From Herbaspirillum sp. (lineage in GTDB: Bacteria; Pseudomonadota; Gammaproteobacteria; Burkholderiales; Burkholderiaceae_D), in assembly GCA_019233085.1 (NCBI GenBank), contig JAFAMT010000145.1:1-40970 (forward strand): a DNA stretch of 40,970 nt. The letters are read 5' to 3'. Under the pieces are notes generated by a model. That model made no database searches. It was not told the origin of the DNA and was given only the letters and a program-made list of their open reading frames with translations. Positions 30,238 to 39,979 of the stretch are shown one piece after another. A program made the translations under genes and the position numbers. The stretch's first letter is position 1; every line of letters begins with the position of its first letter.

Positions 30238-31308
30238 GTGGCTTTGAAATCGCTTCGCAATATCTTGCCTGTGCTGTGCATGGTGAACCTGCTGCTGTTC
30301 ATGATGCTGGCGCAGCATTGGTGGCTGGGTGCCCTGGTGGGCTTGCTCATCGGTGGCGCCTTTTACCTGACTTGCCTGCCGGCGCCGTCTTCGTCGGTCG
30401 TCCTGGCTGAGGGGGCGTCACGGTCCACGCCGGAACCGGCCCTGGCGGCCGACAGCCGACTGGCCGCTCTCTTGCGTGATGTCCTGCCGGTATGGCGTGG
30501 CAACGTGCAATTGGCCCGTGCCCAGACGCAGTCGGCCATCGACAGCCTGTCGGCGCGGTTCGTGGGCATCCATGAACGGTTGGGCCAGGCGCTGGATCCG
30601 GCGCGCCACGGCGCCAGCGCAGAGATCTTGCAGACCGTCGAGCACGCCGCCGAGCAGCTGGGCAGCATCGCCGTGGCGCTCGAAGGCATGCTGGCGCAAC
30701 GCCAGGCCCTGGCCAGCCGCTTCGATGCGGTGATGTCCGGCAACGACGAGATCCGTCGGCTGGCGCAGCAGAACGAGCAACTGGCCGGGCAGACCGGCGT
30801 GACCGACCTGCTCAGCAGCGAACAGAGCTGGCAGGAGCTGGCCGAGCGTTCGGCCGAGAACAGTCGCCAGATCGCTGCCCGTGCCAAGAACACGCGCCAG
30901 CAGATCCTGGCCGCCATCGGCGCGAGCGCCGAGGATCCGGCCAGCGGCGAGATCGTCGAAAACACGCGTTCCGTGATCGATCGCGTGATTGCCGATTTCC
31001 GCCAGTCGGCAATGAAGCTGAGCACGACCGTGGAGCAATTGCAGGACGAAGGCCGCGAGGTCGACCGTGAGGTCAGCGACATCCTGGTACAACTGCAGTT
31101 CCAGGACCGCATTAACCAGATCCTTGACCACGTGCAACTGGATATCGTGCGCCTGCGCGAGGCTGCCGATGCCGACGCAGCAAGCTTGCCGAGCTCCCAG
31201 CAATGGCTGGCCGACCTGGAAAAGACCTATACCACGCAGGAACAACGCCAGGTGCACGCCGGCCAGCAGGGCGGCCAGGCACCTTCTTCGCAAGTAGACT
31301 TCTTCTGA
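30238..31308 (+). CDS. Membrane-anchored coiled-coil chemotaxis protein with CheZ-like DxxxQ motif
   Basis: The 356-residue protein has an N-terminal hydrophobic pair (about residues 9-46: ILPVLCMVNLLLFMMLAQ, then LGALVGLLIGGAFYLTCL), then a helical, Gln/Glu-rich cytoplasmic part with strong coiled-coil character. Near the end LVQLQFQDRINQILDHVQ contains FQDRINQ, with Asp290 and Gln294 spaced as the catalytic pair of CheZ (FQDLTGQ, Asp143/Gln147 in E. coli). The C-terminus SQVDFF recalls the CheY-binding tail of CheZ. It is often annotated as an MCP-like protein, but no MCP signalling hairpin is present. It is the first gene of the operon, followed 9 bases later by cheY. GTG 30238 is the start that opens the frame; TTG 30244 is an alternative. 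Phosphatase activity is inference. Confidence 0.6.
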   Translation: MALKSLRNILPVLCMVNLLLFMMLAQHWWLGALVGLLIGGAFYLTCLPAPSSSVVLAEGASRSTPEPALAADSRLAALLRDVLPVWRGNVQLARAQTQSAIDSLSARFVGIHERLGQALDPARHGASAEILQTVEHAAEQLGSIAVALEGMLAQRQALASRFDAVMSGNDEIRRLAQQNEQLAGQTGVTDLLSSEQSWQELAERSAENSRQIAARAKNTRQQILAAIGASAEDPASGEIVENTRSVIDRVIADFRQSAMKLSTTVEQLQDEGREVDREVSDILVQLQFQDRINQILDHVQLDIVRLREAADADAASLPSSQQWLADLEKTYTTQEQRQVHAGQQGGQAPSSQVDFF

Positions 31309-31317
31309 GGAAGCACG

Positions 31318-31686
31318 ATGGAAAAAAGCATATTGATCGTCGACGACTCGTTCAGCCTGCGCCAGACCATCACGGCAGCCTTGAAGAGTGCCGGCTATCA
31401 CGTCGAGGAAGCCGCCGACGGCAAGCAGGCGTTGGCCAAGCTGGACGGGCGCAAGTTCAACCTGGTCATCTCCGACCTGAACATGCCCAACCTCGATGGC
31501 CTGTCCTTCGTGCGCGAGATGAAGCAGATGCCGGCCTACAAGTTCACGCCGGTCATCATGCTGACCACGGAAAGCAGCGACGCCCGCAAGCAGGAAGGCA
31601 AGGCCGCCGGCATCCGGGCCTGGGTCCACAAGCCCTTCCAGCCGCCGGTGCTGCTCGATGCCGTGGCCAAGCTGGTGCAGCCGTAG
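31318..31686 (+). CDS. cheY: CheY-type single-domain response regulator
   Basis: The 122-residue receiver domain has the acid pair in ILIVDDSFSLRQ, the phosphoacceptor Asp53 in LVISDLNMPNLDG, the switch Thr83 in VIMLTTES, and Lys105 in WVHKPFQPP. It carries no output domain, so phosphorylation by CheA is the signal. The sequence is of the PilG/CheY-like subtype found in cluster-specific systems more than flagellar-motor CheY. A ribosome site (GAGGAAG) precedes ATG 31318. The gene lies between the CheZ-like protein, a candidate phosphatase for it, and the STAS protein. Confidence 0.92.
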   Translation: MEKSILIVDDSFSLRQTITAALKSAGYHVEEAADGKQALAKLDGRKFNLVISDLNMPNLDGLSFVREMKQMPAYKFTPVIMLTTESSDARKQEGKAAGIRAWVHKPFQPPVLLDAVAKLVQP

Positions 31687-31737: not shown

Positions 31738-32133
31738 ATGCCGCTGAAGTACACCGTGCAAGAGGACAAGTTGCAGCTCACCTTGCGTGGCAGCCTGACC
31801 ATTTTCCAGGCCGCCGAGCGCAAGCCCGAGCTGCTGCACGCGCTCACGCAGGCACAACGGGTGGTGGTGCTGGATACGTCGGGCGTGGATGAGATCGACA
31901 CGGCCGGTATCCAGTTGCTGCTGCTGTTGCGTCGCGAGCTGGACGCCAGTGGGCGCCACCTGGAACTGGGACCATGCAGTCCGGCCGTGCTGGCGGCGTT
32001 GGACCTGCTGCAGCTGCATGAGCGCTTCCATGCGCCTGCCGTGGAAAGCATCGGGGACGATGATGACGGCGATGACGGCGATGACGGCAATGGCAGCGAT
32101 GGTGGCGAGAGCCTGGCCGAGGAGGGCGCATGA
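31738..32133 (+). CDS. STAS-domain protein (anti-anti-sigma-like) of the chemosensory operon
   Basis: The 131-residue protein has a STAS fold: LKYTVQEDKLQLTLRGSLTIF, then VVVLDTSGVDEIDTAGIQLLLLLRREL. In phosphorylatable SpoIIAA-type proteins the site is DSSG; here it is DTAG (residues 54-57), so the phosphorylated serine is replaced by alanine and regulation by a serine kinase at that place is unlikely. After residue 105 comes a disordered Asp/Gly tail encoded by a 9-bp repeat. The stop overlaps the cheA start (ATGA, 32130-32133). A regulator of protein contacts, or a partner of CheA or its receptor, is plausible; function unknown. Confidence 0.85.
   Translation: MPLKYTVQEDKLQLTLRGSLTIFQAAERKPELLHALTQAQRVVVLDTSGVDEIDTAGIQLLLLLRRELDASGRHLELGPCSPAVLAALDLLQLHERFHAPAVESIGDDDDGDDGDDGNGSDGGESLAEEGA
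32062..32106 (+). repeat. 9-bp tandem repeat encoding an Asp-Asp-Gly tail
   Basis: GATGACGGC occurs three times exactly in tandem (32062-32088), followed by two degenerate copies (to 32106). It encodes the acidic C-terminal tail of the STAS protein in frame. Nine-base units keep the frame when copy number changes, so the tail length may vary between strains. Confidence 0.75.
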
Positions 32134-34304
32134 GCAAGGACTCCGCGCGTGACGCCGTCGTCCAGGAAGCCCGCGAGTTGCTGGTAGCCATGGAAGCTGC
32201 GCTGCTGCAGATCGAGATGGAAGGGCCCAGCCGCGAAAGCATCAACGCCATCTTCCGCGCGGCCCACACCATCAAGGGCTCGGCGGGCCTGTTCGCCTTC
32301 GACAGCATCGTCCACTTTACCCACCAGCTCGAACATGTGCTGGACAAGGTGCGCGACGAGGAACTGGCGCTGAACGGGCACATGATGTCGCTGTTGCTGC
32401 AGTGTGGCGACTATATCGGCGAACTGGTGGATGCCATCGAACGCCGCGAGGAACTCCAGGAACCCAACCCCGAGCGTCGCGCCACCTTGCTGGCCGAGCT
32501 GGAGGCCGTGGCACAGGCGGCCACCCGTGTCGATGCGGCGGTCGATCCCGCCCCGCAAGGGGCCGCGCCGGCCGCAGGCGGCGAGTCGCCGGTGATCTCT
32601 GCCATGGACGCGGCGCCGGCAGATTATCCGTACTGGCACCTGTCGCTGGCCTTCAACGAAAACGTATTGCGCGACGGCCTGGACCCGATGTCCTTCCTGC
32701 ATTACCTGCGCTCGCTGGGTCGCATCGTCGCCATCCTGCCGCTGGAATCGGCCATTCCCGCGGCTGACGAGATGGATGCCGAAAGCTGCTACCTGGGCGT
32801 GGAAATCTGCCTGGCCTCGGACTCCTCGCGACAGACGCTGGAAGATGTCTTCGAATTCGTGCGCGACGACAGCCGCATCGACATCCTGCCGCCGCGCAGT
32901 TCCCTGTCGGCCTATGCCGAGGTGCTGGCGCGCCTGCCGCGTGAGGATGCCGCCCGCCTGGTGGGCATGTGGCGGCGCCTGGACCAGTTCAGCGAAGCGC
33001 AATGGCGCAGCCTCGGTGCAGCCACCGTGGCCGAGGCGATCGCCCCGGTGGTGCCGGTGGCCGCAGGTGACGTGGTGCAGCGTCCGCGTCCGCTGGACGA
33101 GCGCCGGGCGCATGAGCAGAAGTTCATCAAGATCGAGGTCTCCAAGCTGGACCAGCTCATCGACCTGGTGGGCGAGCTGGTCATCGCCGGTGCCAGTGCA
33201 CGCCTGGTGGCACGCCGGCGCAAGGATAGCCAGTTCGAGGAAGCCACCCAGGCCATCGATGCCCTGATGGAGCAGATCCGCGATGCCGCCCTGACGCTGC
33301 GCATGGTGCAGATCAATGAAGTGTTCCAGCGTTTTCCGCGCATCGTGCGCGACCTGGCGCGCGACCTCAACAAGGATATCGAGCTGGTCATGACCGGTTC
33401 GGACACCGAGCTGGACAAGTCCATGATCGAGCGCATCGCCGATCCGCTCATGCATATCGTGCGCAATGCCATCGACCACGGCATCGAACCGGCCGCCGAG
33501 CGCATCGCCGCCGGCAAGCCGGCCAGGGCGACGCTGCGCCTGAACGCCATCCACGAGTCCGGCAGTGTCGTGGTGGAGGTCATGGACGATGGCCGCGGCA
33601 TGGACCGCGAGCGCATCCTGGCGCATGCCATCGCCAGCGGCCTGGCCGCGCCGGAGGCTGAGTTGAGCGATGCCGAGATCTATCGTTTCGTCTTCGAACC
33701 CGGGTTTTCCACGGCCCGCGAGGTGACCGAATTGTCCGGGCGTGGCGTGGGCATGGATGTGGTCAAGCGCAATATCGAGGCCCTGCACGGCGAGGTCGTC
33801 ATCGATACCGAACGCGGACGCGGCACCGTGGTGCGCATCCGCCTGCCGCTGACGCTGGCCATCATTTCCGGATTCCAGGTGGTGGTGGGCAATGCGGTCT
33901 TCGTCATTCCGCTGGACATGGTGGTGGAGTGCATCGACATGCCTCCCCAGCACGCCGGCTGCAATATCGTGGCCGTGCGCGGCGAGCCCTTGCCCTTCGT
34001 GCCGCTGCGTGAGCTGTTCGACCTGCCGGCGCGCGAGCACGGCCGCAACAGCCTGGTGATCGTGCAGTATGGCAAGCTGCGTGCGGGCTTGCTGGTCGAC
34101 GGCCTGCTGGGGGAGTGCCAGGCCGTGATCAAGCCCCTGGGGCGCTTGTTCGGCAAGGTCAAGGGCCTGTCCGGATCGACCATCCTGGGTGACGGCCGGG
34201 TCGCACTGATCCTGGACATTCCGCACCTGGTGCAGCACACGCAGCAGCAGGAACAGGGCAATCCGGCGCTCTATGTCGAACGTGGCGTAGGTATTGCGCC
34301 ATGA
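32130..34304 (+). CDS. cheA: Chemotaxis histidine kinase CheA
   Basis: The 724-residue kinase has five recognisable parts: an Hpt domain with phosphorylated His46 ([14 protein letters not shown]); a P2-like regulator-binding segment around residues 165-260 ([19 protein letters not shown] to RIDILPP); a dimerisation helix pair ([22 protein letters not shown]); a HATPase with N box [13 protein letters not shown]1 [13 protein letters not shown] and G2 GRGVGMDVV; and a C-terminal CheW-like domain ([21 protein letters not shown]). It autophosphorylates on receptor signal and passes phosphate to CheY, CheB and perhaps the REC-EAL protein. Start and stop both overlap neighbours (ATGA), so translation is coupled. 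Confidence 0.96.
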
Positions 34305-34351
34305 CTAGCCCAACGAGACAGTCAACCGCCGCAGCACAAGGGGAAGCTAGC

Positions 34352-36139
34352 ATGCAAGTATCGATGACCCACAGAATGAGCATCAAGCAGCTCTTCATCT
34401 GGCTGGCCCTGGTGGTCTCCATTCTGGTGGCCGTGGTGATCAGCCTGATCCACACGCTCAAGGATGCCAATGCCGCGCTGGAGCAGGCGCACCAGTCACG
34501 CTATGCGTCGGCGGCGCTGGCCGATGAGTTGCGCCGCACCAGCGAGGACATGACCAAGTTCGCGCGGGCCTATGTGACCACGGGCGATCCCAACGACGAG
34601 GACCGCTACTACATGATCATGGACATCCGCAACGGCAAGCGGGCGCGTCCGGCCAACTACGAGCGCTTCAACTGGGACCTGGTCAATGCACGCAAGCTGC
34701 CGGTGGAGGCCGGCGCGCAGGCGGTGCCGCTGATCGAACTGATGCAGCGTGCCGGCTTCACCGAGCAGGAACTGGCCAAGATGAAGGAGGCCCTGTCCAT
34801 CACCGACCAGCTGTCACGCATCGAGATCACGGCCTTCCATGCAGTCAAGGGCGAGTTCGACGACGGCGAGGGCAAGTTCACCGTGATCGGCGCCCCCAAC
34901 CAGGCCATGGCGCAGGAGCTGGTGTTCGACCAGACCTACCGCGCCCTGTTCGGCAAGGTCATGAGCCCGGTCAACGATTTCCTGCGCCTGGTGGATGAGC
35001 GTACCGAGGCCAAGGTGATTCGCGCCGGTCGCGAATATGCGGAGCTCGAACAGAAGATCTTCTGGCTGCTGACCGCTTCCGTGCTGTTGCTCTTTGCCTG
35101 CCTGGGGTTTGCCTATCGCACCATCCGCTCGCAGATCGGTGGTGAGCCGCGTGACGCCATGAGCGTGCTGCGCCGGGTGGCCGAGGGCGACCTCACCGTA
35201 TCGGTGCCGCTGGGCAAGCGCGACAGGATCAGCGTGCTCTACAGCACCCAGCAGATGGTCAACAAGTGGACCGATGTGATCGGCGACGTCAGCGGCACCG
35301 CCGGTGCCCTGGCCTCGGCGTCGGAGCAGATCTCGTCGTCCTCGCAGGCGCTGTCGCACAGCGCCTCGCAGCAGGCCGCCAATGTCGAGGAAACCAGCGC
35401 CTCGGTGGAAGAGATCACCGCCACCATCGCCCAGAATGCCGACAATGCCCGCACCACCGATGGCATTGCCAGCCTCTCGGCCCATGCCGCCACCGAAGGC
35501 GGGGAAGCCGTGCGCGAGACGGTAGCCGCCATGAAGCAGATTGCCAGCAAGATCGGCATCATCGACGACATCGCCTACCAGACCAACCTGCTGGCCCTGA
35601 ATGCAGCCATCGAGGCGGCCCGTGCCGGCGAGCACGGCAAGGGCTTCGCGGTGGTGGCCGCCGAGGTGCGCAAGCTGGCCGAACGCTCGCAGACGGCCGC
35701 CCAGGAAATCATCGCCGTGGCCGAGCATAGCGTGGGCCTGGCCGAGAAGGCCGGCGGCCTGCTCAACCAGATGGTGCCGTCGATCCGCAAGACCGCCGAC
35801 CTGGTGCAGGAGATCGCCGCCGCCTCGGCCGAACAGTCGACCGGGCTGGAACAGATCAACAATGCCGTGCACCAGATGGCGCAGACTACCCAGATGACCG
35901 CCTCGGCCTCGGAAGAACTGTCGGCCACCTCCGAGGAGATGAGCGCCCAGGCCATGCACCTGCAGGACCTGATGCGTTTCTTCCAGGTGGGTGAGATGCG
36001 CAAGGCCGTGCCACGCAGTGTCAAGGCAGGACCCGGTCCCGGCGGCCCAGGCAAGCAGGAACGCATGCGCCGCCTGTCGATGCTGGACGCTGCCGAGGAC
36101 GAGGCAGCGGTCGACGAATCGTCGTTCAAGCGTTTCTGA
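34352..36139 (+). CDS. Methyl-accepting chemotaxis protein, short (34-heptad) class
   Basis: The receptor has an N-terminal membrane helix ([23 protein letters not shown]), a periplasmic four-helix-bundle-type sensor of about 200 residues, a second helix ([20 protein letters not shown]), a HAMP domain and a signalling hairpin with tip [20 protein letters not shown] and [17 protein letters not shown]. By hand alignment with Tsr each arm lacks one heptad, giving the 34H class. No NWETF-type tail is present (ends ESSFKRF), so CheR docks elsewhere. The ATG at 34301 overlaps the cheA stop, but I prefer ATG 34352, which has AAGGGGA 7 bases upstream. Ligand unknown. Confidence 0.92.
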
Positions 36140-36167: not shown

Positions 36168-36734
36168 ATGCCCAGTGTGTCGTTGAATGGCGATTCCTTC
36201 AAGAAGCGGCAACAGGAGGAAGTCATCGAAAGCCGTCAGTTCCTGACCTTCCTGGTCGGGTCCGAGAGCTTTGCCATGCCCATCGCCAGCATCCGTGAGA
36301 TCATCGAATACGGCGGCCTGACCGAGGTGCCCTTGATGCCGGGCTTCCTGCGTGGCGTGATCAACCTGCGCGGCTCGGTGGTACCGGTGATCGACCTGTC
36401 GGCGCGCTTTGGCCGGGCTCCCACGGTGGAGGCCAAACGCACCTGCATCATCATCATGGAACTGCAGCAGGAGGGCCAGTTGCTGCTGCTGGGGGTCATG
36501 GTCGATGCGGTCAGTGCGGTGCTCAACGTCAACGTCGACGACATCGAGCCGCGCCCCACCTTCGGTGCCGGTATCCGCTCCGATTTCATCGACGGCATGA
36601 TCAGCGTCAGCGAGCGCTTCATCGTGGTGCTCGATGTACCCCGGGTGTTGTCGCTGGATGAACTGGCCAGCCTCCTGGGCATGAGCGCCGAGAACGCACT
36701 GGGCGGTGGGCCCGGTGACGGATTGCGGGAGTAG
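36168..36734 (+). CDS. cheW: CheW adaptor protein
   Basis: The 188-residue protein couples the receptor to CheA. After a 20-residue polar lead, the CheW domain begins SRQFLTFLVGSESFAMPIASIREII and continues with LPGFLRGVINLRGSVVPVIDLSARFG (split by normal turns) and FIDGMISVSERFIVVLDV. The ribosome site AGGAGAGAAGG precedes ATG 36168; an earlier frame start overlapping the receptor was rejected. cheR starts 5 bases after it. The C-terminal 20 residues (after LASLLG) are an extension beyond the domain. Confidence 0.94.
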   Translation: MPSVSLNGDSFKKRQQEEVIESRQFLTFLVGSESFAMPIASIREIIEYGGLTEVPLMPGFLRGVINLRGSVVPVIDLSARFGRAPTVEAKRTCIIIMELQQEGQLLLLGVMVDAVSAVLNVNVDDIEPRPTFGAGIRSDFIDGMISVSERFIVVLDVPRVLSLDELASLLGMSAENALGGGPGDGLRE

Positions 36735-36739
36735 CGACC

Positions 36740-37573
36740 ATGAGCGGCTGGAACGGCATTCAGGCGGAAGATGACGTCAGCGACCACGACATGTTGCTGT
36801 TCCAGCAGTTGTTCAAGCAGCAGATCGGCCTGCACCTGCCGCTGTCCAAGAAGGCCCTGCTGCAAAGCCGCCTGGGGGCCCGCCTGCACGAACTGGGACT
36901 GCGCCAGCTCGGCCAGTACCACGCACTCATTGCCGGCGAACAGGGTGCCCAGGAGCGCCAGCGCGCCATCGACCTGATCACCACCAACGAAACCTATTTC
37001 TTCCGCGAACAGGGGCATTTCGATTTCCTGGTCGAGGAGTTCCTGCCGCAGTGGAGCAGCCAGCAGCACCTGCGCGTCTGGAGCGCGGCCAGCGCCACCG
37101 GCGAGGAAGCCTATACCCTGGCCATGCTGCTGGATCGCCATCGCACTGCTGGAAGCTGGTCGGTGTTCGGCTCCGACGTCAGCATGCGGGTACTGCGCTT
37201 TGCCCGCCGGGCGCTCTATCCGCTGGCGCGCGGGCAGAACATCCCGCGCCAGTACCTGCGCCGCTACTGCCTGATGGGGACGGGGGAATACGAAGGACAT
37301 TTCCTGGTGCAGGCCGAGCTGCGCAAGCAGGTCGAGTTTGCCCAGCGCAATCTCACGCGCCTGGATGAATTCGATGATGGGCTCTATGACCTGATCTTCC
37401 TGCGCAACGTGATCATCTACTTCGATTGCCCCACCAAGCTGCAAGTGCTGCGCGATGTGATCGCCCGCCTGCGTCCGGGCGGCTACCTGGTGGTGGGGCA
37501 CTCGGAATCCCTGCACGGCATGGACCTGGCGCTGGAGATGCATTCGCCGTCGATCTACAGGAAGCCGACATGA
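36740..37573 (+). CDS. cheR: Chemoreceptor glutamate methyltransferase CheR
   Basis: The 277-residue enzyme methylates receptor glutamates with S-adenosylmethionine for adaptation. The N-terminal helical domain (HDMLLFQQLFKQQIGLHLPLSKKALLQSRL) is followed by TTNETYFFREQGHFDFL, the SAM-binding motif VWSAASATGEEAYTLAMLL, and FLRNVIIYFDCPTKLQVLRDV near the C-terminus. It overlaps cheB by four bases (ATGA). Length is normal. Confidence 0.95.
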   Translation: MSGWNGIQAEDDVSDHDMLLFQQLFKQQIGLHLPLSKKALLQSRLGARLHELGLRQLGQYHALIAGEQGAQERQRAIDLITTNETYFFREQGHFDFLVEEFLPQWSSQQHLRVWSAASATGEEAYTLAMLLDRHRTAGSWSVFGSDVSMRVLRFARRALYPLARGQNIPRQYLRRYCLMGTGEYEGHFLVQAELRKQVEFAQRNLTRLDEFDDGLYDLIFLRNVIIYFDCPTKLQVLRDVIARLRPGGYLVVGHSESLHGMDLALEMHSPSIYRKPT

Positions 37574-38730
37574 ACGCCCCGCTCATCCGGGTGATGGTGG
37601 TCGACGACTCCTCGGTGGTGCGCCAGCTGGTGCAGCAACTGCTGGCCGAGACGGTCGATATCCGTGTCATCGGCACCGCGCCCGATCCGGTCTTCGCCCT
37701 GCGCAAGATGAACCAGGAGTGGCCTGACGTGATCCTGCTGGATATCGAGATGCCGCGCATGGATGGCATCACCTTCCTCAAGCAGATCATGGCGACCCGG
37801 CCTACGCCGGTGGTCATGTGCAGTTCGCGTGCCGAGGATGGCAACGGCGTGGCCGCCGCCGCGCTGGCCGCCGGCGCCGTCAGTGTCATTGCCCGCCCGC
37901 AACTGGGTGTTCGTGACTTTCTGCATGAGGCCGTGGCCGAACTGGCCTGTGCCATTCGCGCGGCTGTGCAGGCCGGACCGGCCGCGCGTGCCCTTGCAGC
38001 AGCGGGGCCGCGCGGCAGTGTACCTGCGGCACACGTGCGCACGGTCAAAGCAGGCTCGGACGAAATGTTGCATCATGATGGCTGGGTGTCAGGTTTGCAA
38101 CGCTACAGCGCCGATGCGGTGCTGAACCCGCCAGGCCCGGAAGACGGGCATCATCCCGCAACTGCCCGCATCGTCGCCATCGCCGCCTCCACGGGAGGAC
38201 CGCAGGCGCTGGAGCGGGTGCTGGGCCGGCTGGGACCGGATTGTCCGGGGCTGGTAGTGGTGCAGCATATGCCGCAGCGCTTTACGCGCAGCTTTGCCGA
38301 GCGGCTGCACCGGCTCTCAGGGGCCGAGGTCAGGGAGGCCGAGCACCAGGACATGGTGCTCCCGGGACGCGTGCTGATCGCACCCGGTGGGAAGCATCTG
38401 GTGGTCAGGCGGGATGGGCTGCAGTACTATGTGGAAACATTGGATGGCCCCCTGGTGAGCCGGCACAAGCCCTCGGCGGATGTGCTGTTCCGCTCGCTGG
38501 CCAAGGCCGCAGGCAGCAATGCGGTGGGGATCATCATGACGGGGATGGGGGACGATGGCGCGCACGGTCTCAAGGAGATGGCCGAATGCGGGGGCGCCAC
38601 CTATGCCCAGGACGAAGCCACCAGCGTGGTCTTCGGTATGCCGAAAGAAGCGATACAACTGGGTGGTGTCGGTGACGTCATCGCTCTCGACAACATCTCT
38701 GCGGTGATTGAACAATATGCCTCCCGATAA
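37570..38730 (+). CDS. cheB: Chemotaxis response regulator / protein-glutamate methylesterase CheB
   Basis: The 386-residue protein removes receptor methyl groups or deamidates glutamine when phosphorylated. It has a receiver domain (VDDSSVVRQL; phosphoacceptor Asp58 in LLDIEMPRMDG), then a linker of about 55 residues, and an esterase domain with the catalytic Ser207 in IAASTGGPQAL, His233 in VVQHMPQRFT and Asp329 in TGMGDDGAHG. The start ATG 37570 overlaps the cheR stop. The linker (about residues 140-197) is unusually rich in charged and Pro/His residues. It overlaps the following REC-EAL gene by 14 bases. Confidence 0.95.
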   Translation: MNAPLIRVMVVDDSSVVRQLVQQLLAETVDIRVIGTAPDPVFALRKMNQEWPDVILLDIEMPRMDGITFLKQIMATRPTPVVMCSSRAEDGNGVAAAALAAGAVSVIARPQLGVRDFLHEAVAELACAIRAAVQAGPAARALAAAGPRGSVPAAHVRTVKAGSDEMLHHDGWVSGLQRYSADAVLNPPGPEDGHHPATARIVAIAASTGGPQALERVLGRLGPDCPGLVVVQHMPQRFTRSFAERLHRLSGAEVREAEHQDMVLPGRVLIAPGGKHLVVRRDGLQYYVETLDGPLVSRHKPSADVLFRSLAKAAGSNAVGIIMTGMGDDGAHGLKEMAECGGATYAQDEATSVVFGMPKEAIQLGGVGDVIALDNISAVIEQYASR

Positions 38731-39979
38731 CCTCAACGAGCTGATCGAATCCGCGCTGGTGGTGGATGACAGCACCTTGCAGCGCCAGCACAGCGTCACG
38801 CTGCTGCAGGAGCTGGGGGTGGACCTGATCTACGAAGCCGGCAACGGCAACGAGGCACTGGACCTGCTGGCCTTGCTCAAGCTGCCACCCAGGCTGGCCG
38901 TGATCGACCTGGAAATGCCGGGCATGGATGGCATCGAGCTGATCCAGCAGCTGCAGCACAAGGGCATCGACATGCCGCTCATCGTCGCCTCCAGCCGCGA
39001 GACCTCGCTGCTGCTGTCGGTGGAAACCATGATCCATGCCCTGGGCATGAACCTCATCGGCGTGCTGCAAAAGCCGCTCAACCAGAGCCAGCTGCGCGCT
39101 GCCCTGGAATCGTTCCGTCCGCATGGCGATGACGCGCGTGCCGATGACGACCCGCTGCCCTCGATGTGCGAGAACGACCTGGGCGCGGCCATCGCCGCCG
39201 GCCAGGTGCTGCCCTACTACCAGCCCAAGATCGACGTGCAGACCGGCATCCTCAAGGGCGTCGAGGCACTGGCACGCTGGATCCATCCGGAGCGCGGCAT
39301 GATCCCGCCGGACCGCTTCATTCCCATGGCCGAGCAATGCGGGCTGATCCACGAACTCACCATCAGCATGATGGACCAGGCCATGGGCCAGGCGGCGGTG
39401 TGGCACAGTCGCGGACTGACGATCAAGGTGGCGGTCAACCTGTCACCGCTGTCGCTGGAGCAACCGGATTTCCTGCATCGCATCCTGGAGCTGGTGGACA
39501 AGCATGCGCTGCCGGCCGACCACGTGGTACTGGAAATCACCGAGAGCTCGGTGGTGGCGCACAAGGGTAATTCGCTGGGCATGCTGGCGCGCCTGCGCCT
39601 GAAGGGTTTCGGTCTGTCCATTGACGATTACGGCACCGGTTTCTCGTCGATGCAGCAGCTGGCGCGCATCCCGTTCACCGAACTGAAGATCGACCGCTCC
39701 TTCGTCCACGGCGCGCATGACCGCAAGAACCTGCGCGTGATCCTGCAGTCCGCGCTGGACATGGCGCAACGCCTGGAGCTGGTGACCGTGGCCGAGGGCG
39801 TGGAGACCATGGAAGACTGGCGGTTGCTGCAGGACTTCGGTTGCAGCCTGGGCCAGGGCTACCTGATTGGCAAGCCCATGCCGGCCAATGAATTGCCGCT
39901 GTGGCTGAAGGGGCATCACCGGCGCCTGCCGGAATTGCGTCCGCTCGGACGCGGCGCAGCCAATGGCGGCGCCGTATAA
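38717..39979 (+). CDS. REC-EAL response regulator, cyclic-di-GMP phosphodiesterase
   Basis: The 420-residue protein joins a receiver domain (ALVVDDSTLQRQ; phosphoacceptor Asp64 in AVIDLEMPGMDG) to an EAL domain (from about residue 155). The EAL catalytic set is complete: EALARW, NLSPLSL with its Asn, EITESS, the DDYGTG loop, LKIDRSFV with the catalytic lysine, AEGVET and LGQGYLIGKP. It should hydrolyse c-di-GMP to pGpG when activated, as in RocR/VieA-type regulators. ATG 38717 lies inside cheB; a TTG three codons earlier is less likely. It ends the operon; no clear terminator follows. CheA phosphorylation is inferred from the operon. Confidence 0.93.
   Translation: MPPDNLNELIESALVVDDSTLQRQHSVTLLQELGVDLIYEAGNGNEALDLLALLKLPPRLAVIDLEMPGMDGIELIQQLQHKGIDMPLIVASSRETSLLLSVETMIHALGMNLIGVLQKPLNQSQLRAALESFRPHGDDARADDDPLPSMCENDLGAAIAAGQVLPYYQPKIDVQTGILKGVEALARWIHPERGMIPPDRFIPMAEQCGLIHELTISMMDQAMGQAAVWHSRGLTIKVAVNLSPLSLEQPDFLHRILELVDKHALPADHVVLEITESSVVAHKGNSLGMLARLRLKGFGLSIDDYGTGFSSMQQLARIPFTELKIDRSFVHGAHDRKNLRVILQSALDMAQRLELVTVAEGVETMEDWRLLQDFGCSLGQGYLIGKPMPANELPLWLKGHHRRLPELRPLGRGAANGGAV

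Follow-up and report, generated by a model that had tools for sequence, protein, structure and literature searches.

The gene at positions 30,238–31,308 (forward strand) of the window, which is the whole stretch of 40,970 nucleotides analysed here (Herbaspirillum sp., assembly GCA_019233085.1, contig JAFAMT010000145.1), encodes a membrane-anchored protein of 356 aa with a CheZ-like module that, judging from alignments with its homologues, descends from a short chemoreceptor (MCP) whose CheA/CheW-binding tip has been lost. This protein is probably a phosphatase of phosphorylated CheY (CheY-P), related to CheZ and acting at the membrane on the CheY encoded by the adjoining gene. Sequence analysis demonstrated the membrane anchor, descent from an MCP, the constancy of the motif's Asp and Gln, the kinship of their region with CheZ, the conserved tail and the linkage to cheY. 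The original prediction of a CheZ-like membrane protein was borne out in its relation to CheZ, anchor, tail and cheY linkage, but it had missed the chemoreceptor ancestry and the lost tip.

The reading frame begins with GTG and ends with TGA. The two N-terminal membrane helices that had been predicted are placed at residues 3–46 (30,244–30,375) both by hydropathy, with 19-residue peaks around residues 7 (1.86) and 31 (1.75) and values of at most 0.96 past residue 55, and by the AlphaFold2 helices at residues 3–24 and 28–46. They are followed by a conserved, family-specific N-terminal cytoplasmic region (30,460–30,702; LPVW...ARxQ...F..I..RL in alignments A1 and A6) and by the turn of a helical hairpin at residues 189–194 (30,802–30,819), which in alignment A1 lies near the site of the MCP tip of relatives. 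Further on comes LQFQDRINQ (residues 286–294; 31,093–31,119), of which FQDRINQ occupies residues 288–294 and in which a 23-sequence alignment and the CheZ register single out Asp290 and Gln294 as CheZ-like. A second family motif, YTTQEQR (residues 331–337; 31,228–31,248), has Y331 and T332 conserved to at least 90% in A1, and the protein ends in SQVDFF (31,288–31,305), a candidate CheY-docking peptide. In many family members YTxxEQR or YTMxEER is found about 40 residues past DxxxQ.

AlphaFold2 modelled the protein alone (pLDDT 74.2, pTM 0.39) with further helices at residues 67–188, 195–231 and 235–312, in agreement with the long coiled-coil that had been noted beside the membrane helices; they form a long hairpin that turns at residues 189–194 and the motif is located in the returning arm, with helix 235–312 running unbroken through it. 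When the protein was modelled as a fusion to CheY through read-through of its stop (pLDDT 81.7, pTM 0.41), the returning arm was broken at residues 286–287, the start of the motif, a weak hint, as the alignments differ between the two models.

The gene heads a cheY-STAS-cheA-mcp-cheW-cheR-cheB operon of chemosensory class F7 or F8, with all genes on the forward strand. Nine bases separate its stop from the start of cheY (31,318–31,686), the proposed substrate, which consists of a single receiver domain (Pfam Response_reg) and has V. cholerae CheY4 as its closest solved structure. The operon continues with the genes for a STAS-domain protein (31,738–32,133), cheA (32,130–34,304), the full chemoreceptor of the operon (34,301–36,139; MCPsignal), cheR (36,740–37,573) and, at its end, a receiver-EAL protein (38,708–39,979), all assigned by Pfam, and with cheW (36,168–36,734) and cheB (37,570–38,730), both read from open reading frames with their starts inferred. 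The receiver-EAL protein at its end suggests that the operon may act through c-di-GMP instead of on the flagellar motor. The operon CheY carries a Trp (AWVHKPF) at the position that we take to be Tyr106 of E. coli CheY, and a Trp is also found there in V. cholerae CheY4. The predicted lack of CheZ, CheC and CheX holds for the operon, where none was seen in the list of open reading frames or by Pfam on seven of its proteins, but two different genuine CheZ genes are located elsewhere in the same genome (contigs C289 and C313; L032 and L033), so that another phosphatase may not be needed. The genome also holds a second, compact family member of 192 aa (G000:C63:11836-12411; L093:1337-1912); it has LQFQDMTSQ, ends in GDIELF and is encoded directly ahead of a further cheY-cheA cluster.

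The position directly before cheY, as originally noted, is a common property of the family. cheY lies downstream on the same strand within 130 bases in 28 of 31 loci, the exceptions being a gap of 304 bases (L028), cheA as the next che gene (L030) and a gene that follows cheY (L031). Nineteen further regions comprised ten members directly before cheY, one about 870 bases before it (L103), four elsewhere in a che cluster and four short relatives without a clear che neighbour. On plasmids of Pseudomonas sp. HR96 and Aeromonas sp. BC14, a member annotated 'methyl-accepting chemotaxis protein' precedes a response regulator, a STAS protein and CheA.

The 31 loci, obtained by a scan of contigs, consist of 15 from Herbaspirillum, one from Duganella and 15 distant ones, the latter mostly from Gammaproteobacteria MAGs together with two Bryobacterales, a planctomycete and an alphaproteobacterium (MAG labels as given); the distant rows of A1 are 16–26% identical to the window protein. 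Matches were found in 29 of the 34 genomes of the same genus at E 1e-10, and a phylum-wide search of 398 genomes with the C-terminal module (alignment A2) was positive in 109 at E 1e-3. Among 2561 open reading frames from all collected loci, 120 matched the family at 1e-4: 115 with Q..D...Q (97 distinct sequences), four CheZ with D...Q and one matching only beyond the motif. Members occur as MCPs with an anchor, MCPs without one, compact proteins of about 190–230 aa and large proteins of about 1200 aa. Four of the stand-alone proteins (L094–L097; 190–231 aa), with no clear che neighbour, carry FQFYDKLTQ or FQFYDRLSQ and YTMEEER or similar and end in DDIELF. The large proteins, of the type called f15 (L081, L083, L086, L087, L090, L092 and L110), have one or two LQNIDRVxQ...YVMEEER modules, often adjoining EV- or EQ-rich repeats, and no tail; their host genomes form one family, of about 2–2.5 Mb, and one of them, a 1245-aa protein (L110:5141-8875, minus strand), is encoded directly before cheY-cheA. 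The idea that these frames of about 1200 aa were noise was rejected, as they hold DRxxQ...YxMEEER modules.

Alignment A1 places the MCP tip, or a variant of it, in most distant relatives; the window protein lacks it, as do its close relatives. The Pfam MCP signalling domain (PF00015) scored above its cut-off in seven of nine relatives in one set, with L027 narrowly below and the Duganella protein (L016) without a match, and in ten of ten in another; Pfam gave no PF00015 match for the window protein either. By the Pfam definition the window protein is thus not an MCP, although the alignments indicate that it is of common descent with MCPs. One genome of the same genus retains the tip in a protein with LQYQDRVSQ and the end DGDVTFF, followed by cheY in the same gene order, so the loss of the tip took place near or within the lineage of the window protein. 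Neither Pfam, NCBIfam nor the PDB sequences gave a convincing match to the whole window protein. Foldseek on the AlphaFold2 model returned no match at E ≤0.001, generic coiled-coil hairpins being among the matches listed, and VIA-align gave its best Z among the matches listed (11.5) to p85 coils and also listed the chemoreceptors 2ch7 (Z 11.0 over 256 residues, rmsd 10.2) and 3zx6 (Z 10.9 over 262 residues, rmsd 12.1). CheZ was absent from the best 50 matches of both programs, fold searches being uninformative for long helices, and the best 50 matches of the CheY-fused model were essentially receiver domains only.

The spacing DxxxQ by itself does not exceed chance, since D...Q was present in 17,571 of 20,000 shuffles of the window protein, whereas FQD...Q was present in 85 of 20,000. 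The first scan for relatives included QFQDRINQ among its seed patterns and its set leans toward the motif; for this reason, motif conservation in the first distant relatives was discounted and a motif-free query, the N-terminal cytoplasmic region alone (A6), was instead run against 274 genomes from the class. Twenty genomes were positive, with 23 matches including that of the window, and QFQDxxxQ was found in all 23 (once, in L132, as MQFQDRVSQ), which raises this motif above chance. Between Asp and Gln these matches have RIN, RTS, RVG, RIS, RVS, RMS, RVT or TTR, and they end in FF in 22 cases and in MF in one. In the 23 sequences aligned in A1, L286, Q287, F288, Q289, D290, R291, I292, Q294 and the final F are invariant, only residue 293 varying within LQFQDRINQ. 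The wider family, represented by the 97 distinct sequences and itself drawn from the search weighted toward the motif, shows LQFQDRINQ, LQFQDMSSQ, LQFEDMVTQ, FQFYDKLTQ, LQNIDRVMQ and other forms; the residue preceding Asp is Q, E, Y, G, A, T, I or D, and Asp and Gln are constant throughout. Additionally, 89 of the 97 end in F, nearly all with hydrophobic-x-[FL]-F (ITFF, VDFF, IELF, VELF), the eight without such a tail all being of the large f15 type; in members of the xLF type the tail resembles QxSxDEGEIELF. CheZ itself ends, by inspection, in VDDLLxSLGF or DIDALF-like peptides. The CheZ-like C-terminal tail of the original prediction is therefore conserved and similar in kind, but it differs from that of CheZ in sequence.

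A tail conserved nearly as well as the motif, on a protein encoded beside cheY, could also belong to a protein that binds CheY-P through tail and helix and does not dephosphorylate it. Such a membrane sink, scaffold or localisation factor would keep CheY near the array or pass it to another output, and the two genomic CheZ could take care of dephosphorylation. We regard this as rather unlikely, since docking by the tail leaves unexplained why Asp and Gln are kept at i and i+4 while the residues between them change. A phosphatase that uses both residues on CheY-P is the reading that we prefer.

The relation to CheZ was approached from both sides. The Pfam CheZ profile (PF04344), not listed for the whole window protein, aligned with a fragment of it at 13.6 bits (E 0.061), below the gathering score of 30.7 bits, with Asp290 at profile position 129, the same position as that of the catalytic Asp of a CheZ from the same genome (L032). 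Other family members gave sub-threshold rows as well (L076, E 8.2e-4; L085, 0.0097; L072, 0.053; L093, 0.0083), with the motif Asp at position 129 also in L076, L085 and L072, and no CheZ row was obtained by Pfam for the other seven of ten and the other six of seven family proteins in two sets. The predicted placing of FQDRINQ in the catalytic DxxxQ register of CheZ was thus recovered by this profile below its threshold, and exactly by hhalign. With small alignments, hhalign against CheZ gave P 0.0042 (A2) and 0.014 (A1), at probabilities of 8% and 3%; with 80 family fragments against 22 CheZ the probability was 85% and P 6.1e-6 over 80 columns, the catalytic Asp being in register. The controls gave P 0.16 when reversed, 0.0032 with the motif masked and the register unchanged, and 0.036 for 30 other chemoreceptors. 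These P values are pairwise, uncalibrated on a database and inflated by helical coils, and the same applies to those of the subgroups (xFF 4.9e-5, xLF 5e-5, short 0.0013, tail-less 0.054). In the reverse direction, CheZ was the only match of the family profile at E ≤0.05 in a genome of the V. cholerae clade (4.1e-4); another Vibrio also yielded CheZ (5.1e-4), as did G310, where it ranked second (9.4e-4), and these matches align on AQDFQDLTGQ or AQDYQDLTGQ. CheZ has been described in excerpts of PMC7750401 as having a conserved AxxFQ motif that adjoins the phosphatase motif DxxxQ. The hhalign controls, together with the exact register, point to a true relation between the DxxxQ region of the family and CheZ. 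The HHpred-type result named beforehand as refuting the original prediction, no relation to CheZ at DxxxQ, thus did not occur.

This relation bears on a further explanation, in which the protein is a decayed or specialised receptor, LQFQDxxxQ serves dimer packing or receptor–receptor contacts, and the resemblance to CheZ is due to a shared helical-hairpin shape with a chance FQD. The clear MCP ancestry, the 85 shuffles with FQD...Q, a CheZ match far under the Pfam cut-off and the generic coiled-coil hairpins that match the model best among the matches listed are in line with it. Conversely, the compact members of about 190–230 aa, without an MCP hit in the Pfam run on them, keep Asp, Gln and tail, and the motif-masked profiles align to CheZ in the same register whereas other chemoreceptors do not, all of which makes this explanation improbable.

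By its profile, the family extends to the McpA-like receptor that Vibrio F7 clusters encode at the VCA1088 position. In the genome of the V. cholerae clade (CheY4 97% identical to the PDB sequence), this receptor has LQFTDIVSQ and the end SIDEGEVELF and matches the subgroup profile at E 8.7e-48, its own sequence being within that profile; the other receptor of the cluster, which is Aer2-like, ends in DEWEEF. The L104 cluster likewise contains a receptor ending in DWEEF and, before cheY, a family member ending in GEVELF. VC1394, a V. cholerae F9 receptor named alongside McpA in excerpts of PMC7534058, was left out as a member, as the V. cholerae-clade genome gave one match, at the VCA1088 position. 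In the excerpts of PMC7184735, McpA-like receptors form an uncategorised class that is dispensable for the F7 array and lacks the CheR pentapeptide motif (P. aeruginosa McpA has a valine at its second position), and their C-terminus is strikingly conserved, with a role termed 'important yet unclear'. According to the same excerpts, early-type F7 systems have their own CheY, and cheZ occurs at early F7 stages only with an F6 system (PMC7184735). VCA1088 is said in excerpts of a review to have no experimental reports available (PMC7534058). The end of the window protein, QVDFF, agrees with the McpA-like description in its conserved C-terminus, its lack of a CheR pentapeptide and its V at the second position. 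The literature searched, which left most subscription papers and all bioRxiv preprints aside, contained no prior report of a CheZ-like site in McpA-like receptors, and the excerpts of PMC7184735 and PMC7534058 make no mention of one. It is highly improbable that the tail is a tether for CheR or CheB that aids receptor methylation like the receptor pentapeptide, even though a receptor-like protein here ends in an aromatic peptide and its operon has cheR and cheB, since an aromatic residue is needed at the second position where the family has V or I, McpA with V there does not bind CheR (excerpts of PMC7184735), and another receptor of the same clusters, Aer2-like, ends in WEEF.

In the preferred reading the protein evolved out of a short chemoreceptor, anchored by two helices, whose CheA/CheW-binding tip was lost. 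If it is a CheY-P phosphatase, two antiparallel hairpins would dimerise to form a four-helix bundle like that of CheZ and of chemoreceptors. The tail would capture CheY-P. In CheZ, Asp143 contacts a Lys of CheY and Gln147 places the attacking water; correspondingly, Asp290 would contact the conserved Lys of CheY and Gln294 would position the water that attacks the aspartyl phosphate. Held by its anchor, the enzyme would work at the membrane, close to the operon's own receptor array, and in the tip-bearing relatives the phosphatase would be located in or beside the array itself. Counted against the phosphatase are the Pfam score far below the cut-off, the two genuine CheZ of the genome, the four short relatives without clear che neighbours, the tail-less subgroup, which gives no match to CheZ (P 0.054), and the lack of a CheZ among the fold matches listed.

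A broader proposal can be put forward tentatively, and we consider it somewhat less probable than its negation: this widespread family as a whole, with the McpA-like receptors of F7 systems among its short chemoreceptors, would carry a built-in CheZ-type phosphatase with which the array ends its own signal. CheZ would share its origin with the family and might be a chemoreceptor that has shed both its anchor and its tip, and the Herbaspirillum protein would have gone half of the same way. Relatives so far catalogued as ordinary receptors without an assigned role may provide the off-switch that is missing from such chemosensory systems. Should this be true, a CheZ-like site with a docking tail would explain both the conserved C-terminus of McpA-like receptors and F7 systems without their own CheZ, the receptor itself could carry signal termination, and an origin for CheZ would be at hand.

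Compared with known systems, the window protein would have in common with CheC, CheX and FliY the presumed task, removal of CheY-P, but it has no such match in Pfam; these phosphatases have a different fold and an ExxN motif. It has the membrane anchor and the long antiparallel hairpin of MCPs, and its relatives carry the signalling domain (PF00015), but the window protein and its Duganella relative differ in having neither a PF00015 match nor the CheA/CheW-binding tip. McpA-like receptors (P. aeruginosa PA0180/CttP, V. cholerae VCA1088) have the membrane region and the conserved C-terminus, with V at the second position of the pentapeptide site, in common with the family; unlike the window protein, they keep the MCP tip, and they have been published only as receptors. 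With CheZ (PF04344) the window protein has in common the catalytically placed FQDxxxQ on the returning arm of a helical hairpin, a similar tail and a gene by cheY, and it differs in its Pfam score, its two membrane helices, its MCP ancestry and the extra YTxxEQR, as well as in the tails of its family (VDFF, ITFF, IELF) versus the longer VDDLLxSLGF of CheZ. As its score stays below the Pfam cut-off, the protein is not filed as a CheZ, and the claim made here is that it probably works like one.
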